Origin: Zeus faber
Taxonomy: Eukaryota > Chordata > Actinopteri > Zeiformes > Zeidae
Assembly (NCBI GenBank): GCA_960531495.1
Contig: OY482846.1
Coordinates: forward strand, 33,005,317 to 33,069,316
Reading direction: 5' to 3'
Length of the DNA stretch: 64,000 nucleotides
Shown: positions 51,501 through 63,865 of the stretch, piece by piece
Layout: each line of letters starts with the position of its first letter
Position numbering within the stretch: position 1 is the stretch's first letter
The notes under the pieces: generated by a model
What the model saw: the letters and a program-made list of their open reading frames with translations, nothing else
Databases searched by the model: none
What the model was told of the DNA's origin: nothing
Made by a program: the position numbers and the translations under genes

Positions 51501-54500
51501 TTTGTTAAATAGGTAGGTACATAGGCAGGTCGTTCCTTACATGTAGGGCCAATAGGGTTTTGGAGCGCGTGGGGTCCAGCCTGGTGCCATTGAGGGGCAG
51601 GGCCCCAATTTGCTGGCCATGGGCGTAGAGCAGCGTGATGTCAGAGGGGGGCGGAGTCACATCCGGGCGGGGCAGCGGGCGCATGGTGGGCGGGGCCACC
51701 GTCGGAATACCTACAAGGACCATAAATATGGACGTCCATCCGGGTACGACGTTTCGGAAAATATCTCTCTCTCTTTGTGAAGCAGCCAGGGGCCATTACA
51801 GGTTCTTAACCAATGAGGGATGGACATAAAGACAGAGCGACTGGCCGATGAAACGATGGACGAACAAAAGGAGGGACAGACAGACTAACAGATAGACGGA
51901 CTGAAAGCTGACAGATACACTTACATGCCGGTTGAACCACGTCATGCGAGCGAGTTCCAGCAATCTCGCGGCCATCTTGGTCCACACACCAGCAGTAGCT
52001 GGTGTCGCCATAACACTGCACTGGACTGAGGTGTAGAAAGAAAGGAACAGAGAGAGAGCGAGAGAGAGAGAGAGAGAGAGAGAGAGAGAGAGAGAGAGAG
52101 AGAGAGAGAGAGAGAGAGAGAGAGCGAGAGAGAGAGAGAGAGAGAGAGAGAGAGAGAGAGAGAGAGAGAGAGAGAGAGAGAGAGAGAGAGAGCGAGAGAG
52201 ACTCATTTGTGAGTTGTTTTTGTTTTGCAATTGATGGTCTACGGGCGGAAAGGGGATGAAGTCAATACATCTGACATTAGACGGCAACGAGTTTCACACT
52301 GAAAGTGACAACTATTAGTAGCGAACTCTATGATTCAGTTCTTGACGGGTCACTCAGTGAAAAGAGCCGTTCGATTTTTTTTCCGCCTCTTCATTTCTTT
52401 GGTTGAGTTGGTGTAACGCACGGGGAGCGAGGGAGGACTTCCTGAACGATGAATCAGAGTCAGAAGAGTCGGTGCGGCTCTGAGTTGTGTACGGAATGCT
52501 CATGAGGACCATTTAATTCTGTCAATGCAAAGCGTGAGCGTGAATCCGTCACATGCAATAAGAAATGTGTAAAATGTATTTTTGTGCCATGGACTTTAAT
52601 TTAGTCCTCAGTAATTATTTTCAGTCTGTGAGTCGAAGATTCGCTCTTTTTGTGAGTGACTCCAGACTACCGAGTCATTTAAAAGGTTTGTTCGCTATGA
52701 ACTAATCGTTTGCGAGTCTCGCATCACTAACTATTTGTAGGCCATAAGCACAGTGTTATGTCTTTGTGAACAGGATAGTGGGTGTACCTGAATTCTCCAT
52801 CCTCCCCACACTGGGGCAGGTAGTGGTGTGCGGCGGGCTGGCCCTCGTAGTGCTCCATCAGGCTCGCCCTCCACCGCTCACACACACTCTCTGGACGTGA
52901 GGGCTCACCGTCTGCGGGGGTGGGTCCAACAACTGGTAAACGTATCCCACAATGCATTGTGCGGGAGTGACTCAACAAGAACAGAGGCTTCAAGAACAAT
53001 AATAAGTCTAATTTTGATTCCTTTAAATAGCTTGTACATTTTATTGATACCATATAGCACTTCCAGGTCTATAAAGAAGAACTGCACACCATAATATATA
53101 CTTTAAATATATACTACGCTTTTTTTAAGCCATTACGTACGAAATAACAGGTCCCTGCATATCAACCCTAGAGTGAACAGGGGTTATATTAATATCTGTT
53201 GATAAATCAGTATATTTATAAACTATAAAAACTTAACTATATTTGATTTTATTGTACAGTTCATAAAACTGTGATACAGCTTTTTTCAAAAGATTATTAT
53301 ATATTTTTTATAGTTTGAAAATAATCAAAAAAGTTAAAAAAAAAGGCCCTGTGCAAAAGTTTATTAATTGAAATTAAAAGTCACTAAAAGGTTAGTGTCG
53401 CTAAACAGCGTAATGGAATATTTATAATATTAAACTCTCTTTCCTGTATCCTAATCTGCTATGTTTTACCCTTTTAAATGACCATCATTATCAGTACCAT
53501 TATAATTATATATATAATTATTATTATAAGTAGTAGTAGTATGGATACTGGTACTCTTTATTACGTAGAAATAATAATAATAATTCTAATTAATAATTCT
53601 AAAGACAATAATGGTGAACTGATACATTTATTGTACACAAAGCTTATTTACTTAGAGTATAAACAACTGGAATATCTTACACAGTGCTACTTTAAGGGAT
53701 ACTGACAGGAAAATATATCTTCCATTCTCGTCACTCACGCACGCACGGACACACACACACACACACACACACACACACACACACAAGCACGCACGCAGGT
53801 TTTTCCTGCTCTCATCCAAATTGTTTACTCGTTAAATCACTTTAATAGCAGGAGCTTTCTAGCGGAGCTTTGCAAGTCCATCCAACACCACTTTGCACTA
53901 AGGGTACTGTTTATACCGATACACACACACACACACACACACACACACACACACACACACACCTCCCCCCACTCTATCAATCTCTGTTTCTCTTTCTCTC
54001 CATTTCTGACTGCTGGACTCTCAGACGGAAATAAGGAGGGATCGAAGGGTTTAGAGACAGTATTTGAGAGGAGGGTGAGAGAAATGAGCTCACACCCATG
54101 GAGACAGATCAGAGAGAGAGAGAGCGAGTCACTCAGGGACTACACAGCACTTGTGTGTTTTCTTAACTGAACTCTCACTTGTAAAGTGTTGCGATGAACA
54201 GTTATAAATGACGGGAACCAACATTTTAATAAGGCCTGGATTGCTCTCTGCCAAAAGCCTGGCCTAGTTTAGTGTTCCATTGACTTGTTTAACGATGAAG
54301 ATCTGCCGCCCTTCATGTTAAAATTGCATAGACTGTGTAGTCTCTTATTGACGACGATAAAAATTGAGCTCATTGACCCGAAAATCCCTTTACTTTGATT
54401 ATTGCACAAAAGCCAGCCTCACAACACCCGTCCATCAAGCTACACACCAAGAAAACTCAACAACTTACCTGGCTTGTCGCAGTCTTTGGGAGGTGTACCA

Positions 54501-63865: not shown

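Follow-up and report, generated by a model that had tools for sequence, protein, structure and literature searches.

A probable nidogen-2 gene of Zeus faber with at least ten thyroglobulin type-1 domains before its propeller

Gene model and Tg1 array

We analyzed a stretch of 64,000 nucleotides (nt) from the genome of Zeus faber (GenBank assembly GCA_960531495.1, contig OY482846.1, positions 33,005,317 to 33,069,316 of the forward strand; the whole stretch is called the window here), whose minus strand carries part of a gene that is most likely nidogen-2 (NID2). A sequence-only reading of the same DNA had placed a nidogen-2 with at least ten thyroglobulin type-1 (Tg1) domains at 51925 to 63865. 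We found that 25 exons on the minus strand, running from 63865 to 45445, could be joined into a single open frame of 1039 codons that was free of stops and consistent in phase. Since the splice sites were set by eye at AG/GT, the presence of GT...AG in all 24 introns holds by construction; the splice model is tested instead by the joining of all exons in one frame with consistent phases. In the model, half a Tg1 domain is followed by nine complete ones and by a nidogen propeller, arranged as follows:

63760–63865, minus strand: exon B0, encoding the latter half of a Tg1 domain that starts past the window edge (106 nt, phase 0 to 1)
63049–63634, minus strand: Tg1 module 1 (exons A1 63634–63501 and B1 63154–63049)
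62373–62744, minus strand: Tg1 module 2 (A2 62744–62611, B2 62478–62373)
61658–62018, minus strand: Tg1 module 3 (A3 62018–61885, B3 61763–61658)
60762–61494, minus strand: Tg1 module 4 (A4 61494–61361, B4 60867–60762)
58329–59091, minus strand: Tg1 module 5 (A5 59091–58958, divergent; B5 58434–58329, near B6–B8)
57518–57838, minus strand: Tg1 module 6, recent copy (A6 57838–57705, B6 57623–57518)
55374–55774, minus strand: Tg1 module 7, recent copy (A7 55774–55641, B7 55479–55374)
54469–54853, minus strand: Tg1 module 8, recent copy (A8 54853–54720, B8 54574–54469)
51925–52911, minus strand: Tg1 module 9, adjoining the propeller (A9 52911–52788, B9 52025–51925)
51541–51710, minus strand: linker exon L and start of the propeller
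45445–51133, minus strand: propeller exons (P1 51133–51004, P2 50749–50578, P3 46750–46593, P4 46092–45969, P5 45557–45445)

Ten stretches of the spliced model matched the Pfam family Thyroglobulin_1 (PF00086; 587 bits, E 4.7e-181), and LDL-receptor class B repeats (Ldl_recept_b) were matched as well. All nine complete domains possess the six cysteines and the CWCV core of type 1A Tg1 domains, and exon B0 carries the matching half. Six-frame translation of the window yielded 12 exact CWCV strings. Ten of them fall inside the array, at minus-strand positions from 51994 to 63844, and the other two are plus-strand strings, one in a simple repeat at 2493 and one at 20015. The open spliced frame together with the Pfam matches rules out a chance or wrong-strand reading of the array. 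Two further Pfam matches below their model cut-offs, SGL (22.4 bits) and Ntox21 (20 bits), were read as propeller overlap and chance.

The propeller aligned with the nidogen structure 1npe in one stretch that covered chain residues 4–263 of 267 (261.8 bits). Chains of LRP2, LRP4 and LRP6 outranked 1npe on total score because they contain several propellers each; for the LRP2 chains with printed alignments, no single stretch exceeded 97 bits, compared with 261.8 bits for 1npe. Thus, the essentials of the sequence-only reading were recovered: its domain count, its cysteine pattern and its in-frame junction to a nidogen propeller agree with the model, and its end points, 51925 and 63865, are the exact ends of exons B9 and B0. 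Because the half domain in B0 starts near the window edge, ten Tg1 domains should be regarded as a minimum. Mammalian nidogen-2 has two Tg1 domains. The same reading had proposed a lineage-specific gain of at least 640 residues between the G2/EGF region and the propeller; the array does lie directly before the propeller, and relative to a nidogen with two Tg1 domains the gain comes to 8 x 80 = 640 residues.

Modules 1 to 8 share one design of 80 residues: a 134-nt exon A that runs from phase 1 to 0 is followed by a 106-nt exon B that runs from phase 0 to 1. The gaps between cysteines (24-10-6-1-21) are identical in all eight, 32 of the 80 columns are invariant, and pairwise protein identity ranges from 50% to 100%. 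Owing to the fixed end phases of both exon classes, the 240-nt unit stays in frame when cut in either class of intron. The links between domains, from the last cysteine of one to the first cysteine of the next, have about 12 residues and are rich in proline and charged residues. Module 9 is built differently (124 + 101 nt, with an internal intron of phase 2 instead of 0); on the simplest reading, it is probably the original last Tg1 domain, and the array probably descends from the original first one. No convincing decayed extra module was found by tblastn over the window, with matches inspected up to E 1: the best match outside the exons (E 0.028) lay at 41341, far from the array, and the best within the array introns had an E value of 0.58.

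Two introns of the array lack stop codons. The A6-B6 intron (57624–57704; 81 nt) is also in frame, and its retention would place 27 additional residues immediately ahead of cysteine 3 in the module 6 Tg1 domain; the length of the B0-A1 intron is not a multiple of three.

Growth and possible homogenisation of the array

The coding units of modules 6 to 8 were 97.5–99.2% identical over 240 nt, and modules 7 and 8 differed at two of 240 positions (99.2% identity). These modules lie in a region with the following features:

54464–58436, minus strand: recent duplication region with modules 6–8 and exon B5, blocks repeated with their introns at 81–98% identity
55516–55622, no strand assigned: minisatellite of 16 base pairs (bp), 6.7 copies, in the A7-B7 intron
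54611–54701: 16-bp minisatellite, 5.7 copies, in the A8-B8 intron

With introns included, the closest blocks were 92–98% identical and two others 81–86%. The tract at 54675–55481, with exons B7 and A8, matches 57660–58436, with exons B5 and A6. The outer edge of this tract falls outside exon B5/B7 by 2 nt. Thus, the shared tract starts with the B exon and splits module 5. The exon comparisons fit such a split: A5 was far from A8 (37 differences in 134 positions), yet B5 was near B8 (7 in 106; Fisher p 2e-5). This pattern could come from an out-of-register duplication or, alternatively, from conversion of B5; either way, module 5 joins exons with different histories. A short stretch of the 16-bp minisatellite is present in the third module of the trio as well, and the minisatellite is possibly length-variable and linked to the module duplications.

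A different pattern was observed for exons A3 and A8, which differed at two of 134 positions (98.5% identity) and were equal at all 19 fourfold sites. Their 60-nt flanks showed identities of 0.60 and 0.57, compared with 0.58 for shuffled 60-nt stretches of exons A1 and A2; the likeness extended past the exon by 5 nt on its upstream side and 2 nt on its downstream side, and the introns did not align. The partner exons B3 and B8 differed at 9 of 106 positions. A nearly identical exon between flanks that cannot be aligned suggests gene conversion confined to the exon.

With regard to constraint, the ratio of nonsynonymous to synonymous divergence (dN/dS; Nei-Gojobori method, our own script) was calculated for the 28 pairs among modules 1 to 8. 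It was 0.14–0.40, at synonymous divergence (dS) of up to 0.96, in the 25 pairs that do not fall within the trio 6–8; the three pairs inside the trio had two to six differences each, too few for a judgement. Thus, the modules are constrained. Such low values reflect constraint on the protein sequence; a new function does not follow from them.

Gene identity and neighbouring genes

The G3 propeller of YWTD/LDL-B repeats, homologous to 1npe, places the gene in the nidogen family, in which NID2 is the most likely assignment, over NID1. One neighbouring gene is informative here:

35070–39924, plus strand: RTRAF (PF10036 in three of three stretches tested)

Located about 5.5 kb past the last propeller exon found, RTRAF is encoded on the opposite strand; in human, too, RTRAF is the neighbour of NID2. 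A single-exon pattern scan, which would miss an EGF domain split over exons, found no EGF-like exon on the minus strand anywhere in the window, and thus none after the propeller; on the plus strand it gave two chance matches. In NID1, an EGF repeat is located in G3 (PMC10381214). The neighbour and the outcome of the scan are the reasons for taking the gene as NID2, as the sequence-only reading had done. They also make it highly improbable that the gene is NID1 or another nidogen paralogue, an idea for which the gene model, which covers neither the 5' half of the gene nor its last exon, leaves some room.

Elsewhere in the window, a phospholamban gene (22349–22651; PF04272, 112.5 bits) was located between the RTRAF exons and FAM184-like exons on the plus strand (3816–8922), which were named by eye and gave no Pfam match in three of three stretches. 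Remains of a Tc1-like transposase on the plus strand (41053–41751) were also named by eye, with no Pfam match for 41053–41397. A minus-strand open reading frame at 30839–31315 had weak matches of retroelement type, SH3_Tf2-1 (18.7 bits) and Integrase_p58_C (15.6 bits), both below cut-off.

Interpretation and comparison with known systems

Nidogens are usually viewed as bridges of nearly fixed layout between laminin and collagen IV. It appears fairly probable that the rod region of this NID2 has been enlarged by repeated duplication of a Tg1 module to at least ten Tg1 domains, which would form a long, semi-stiff spacer. Unequal recombination with breakpoints in introns may have added modules and built hybrids while keeping the frame, gene conversion may have homogenised some exons, and the number of modules could change further through recombination and in-frame exon skipping. 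The best-supported effect, judging from domain order and link composition, is likely to be a lengthening of the rod that separates the two binding ends of NID2: the short links, rich in proline and charge, would make a semi-stiff spacer from the end that binds collagen IV and perlecan to the laminin-binding propeller. Several points weigh against this account. The window covers the 3' half of the gene, with the G1 (NIDO) domain, the G2 beta-barrel and the EGF repeats beyond its edge, and the last coding exon, past 45445, was not identified in the window. The gene model comes from genomic DNA alone, with splice sites placed by eye, and the spacer role is drawn solely from domain order and the composition of the links. 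The youngest nodes of the exon trees had low support, and the contrast between the A and B exons of module 3 was modest, with p values of 0.013, 0.064 and 0.17 against modules 8, 7 and 6, respectively.

The same duplications could also reflect nearly neutral drift in copy number, in which unequal recombination shifts the number of modules and the extra domains are without consequence. The close identity of modules 6 to 8 in blocks that are alike even in their introns, the minisatellite repeated in introns of modules 7 and 8 and present as a short stretch in module 6, and the symmetric phases of all eight array modules would all be consistent with such a process. On the other hand, the older modules are free of stops and have dN/dS values well below 1 at dS of up to 0.96, and the six cysteines are kept in nine of nine domains, which indicates a constraint on folding without implying a gained function; we consider pure drift a serious but rather unlikely explanation. 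An artefact of assembly, in which modules 6 to 8 represent alleles or repeated contig ends, is very unlikely. The two coding differences between modules 7 and 8 are possibly within the allelic range, but modules 6 to 8 differ in coding sites, flanks, intron lengths and minisatellite copies, the window contains no Ns, and merging the three into one would bring the count no lower than seven complete domains and one half domain.

Alternatively, the array might act as a multi-headed thyropin, in which each Tg1 module blocks a cysteine cathepsin, protecting the basement membrane and anchoring the inhibitor there; thyropins (MEROPS I31) are a group characterised by demonstrated inhibition of cysteine or aspartic proteases. 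We regard this role as unlikely, and the evidence is divided. When modules 7/8 were used as a query against solved structures, the best per-domain matches were saxiphilin Tg1 domains (60.7 and 58.9 bits), followed by the p41 invariant-chain fragment, an inhibitor (44.0 bits), and a thyroglobulin domain (36.2 bits). The L2 gap of 6 and the L3 gap of 21 residues are the same as in the printed stretch of saxiphilin Tg1-1, a likeness that is neither a formal criterion nor proof, and saxiphilin inhibits papain and cathepsin L (PMC7863939). However, the same review states that nidogen has not been demonstrated to act as an inhibitor; work cited in PMC3429489 saw no apparent inhibition of papain by entactin, and PMC3429489 itself reports that the Tg1 region of nidogen-1 is cut by cathepsin S. 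The L1 gap is 24 residues here versus 21 in a tick thyropin; in that protein, the larger L1 is considered to restrict the range of targets and to help exclude exopeptidases (PMC10889554). Inhibition cannot be predicted from sequence likeness in the Tg1 fold. More speculative still is the idea that NID2 in this lineage contains a coding variable number tandem repeat, a frame-neutral two-exon module whose number and mosaic would differ from one individual or species to another as a result of intronic recombination and exon-limited conversion, giving a tunable linker length and many cathepsin-binding sites at the junction of laminin and collagen IV. Under the favored account of module duplication and a longer spacer, this NID2, with its ten or more Tg1 domains, would serve as a natural experiment to ask if the length of the bridge, or exposure to proteases, makes a difference to basement membranes. 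It also offers a clear example of how symmetric intron phases let a coding array grow and homogenise with the frame intact.

Tg1 domains occur mainly in animals. Pattern searches gave one match in viral contigs, which was not confirmed, and three in bacterial and archaeal contigs, one of which was confirmed. The confirmed match is not a nidogen but a bacterial protein of 412 amino acids, encoded on a contig of a Flavobacteriales metagenome-assembled genome (PBCX01000017.1, L001:4911-6149); it contains a single Tg1 domain (PF00086, 71.1 bits) with six cysteines by eye, a DUF4886 match of 27 bits and a TSP_3 match below cut-off, and its neighbours look bacterial. Given the mainly animal distribution of the domain, it is perhaps notable in itself. 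In the titles and beginnings of abstracts searched, drawn from literature without most subscription journals, no nidogen Tg1 array of this size was described; a fish nid2 with many Tg1 domains may well be present in sequence databases already.

Vertebrate NID2 (osteonidogen) resembles the gene described here in having Tg1 directly before a propeller of YWTD/LDL-B repeats and in the adjoining RTRAF, and the single-exon scan found no terminal G3 EGF-like exon here; it differs in that mammals have two Tg1 domains compared with at least ten here. A 2024 review describes a Tg1 domain in the rod and, in the part available, does not mention such an array (PMC10972974). A predicted entactin/nidogen of Ciona intestinalis has three Tg1 motifs (PMC3464141), versus at least ten here, whereas echinoderm nidogens (PMC10381214) and those of Drosophila and C. 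elegans (PMC10972974) are described as having none. Thus, variation in the number of Tg1 domains among nidogens is known. Saxiphilin, the saxitoxin-binding thyropin of anurans, has the closest solved Tg1 domains on a per-domain basis, and the eight array modules share 22–26 of 53 and 26–30 of 54 residues with them; in contrast, it is saxiphilin for which inhibition has been shown, and its solved chains contain two Tg1 domains set in a transferrin fold (PMC10889554). Many Tg1 domains in succession are also found in thyroglobulin, with ten and an additional eleventh in the human protein (PMC3464141). Its domains have diverged to 14% identity according to the same source, whereas the eight array modules described here are 50–100% identical in protein and include three recent copies.
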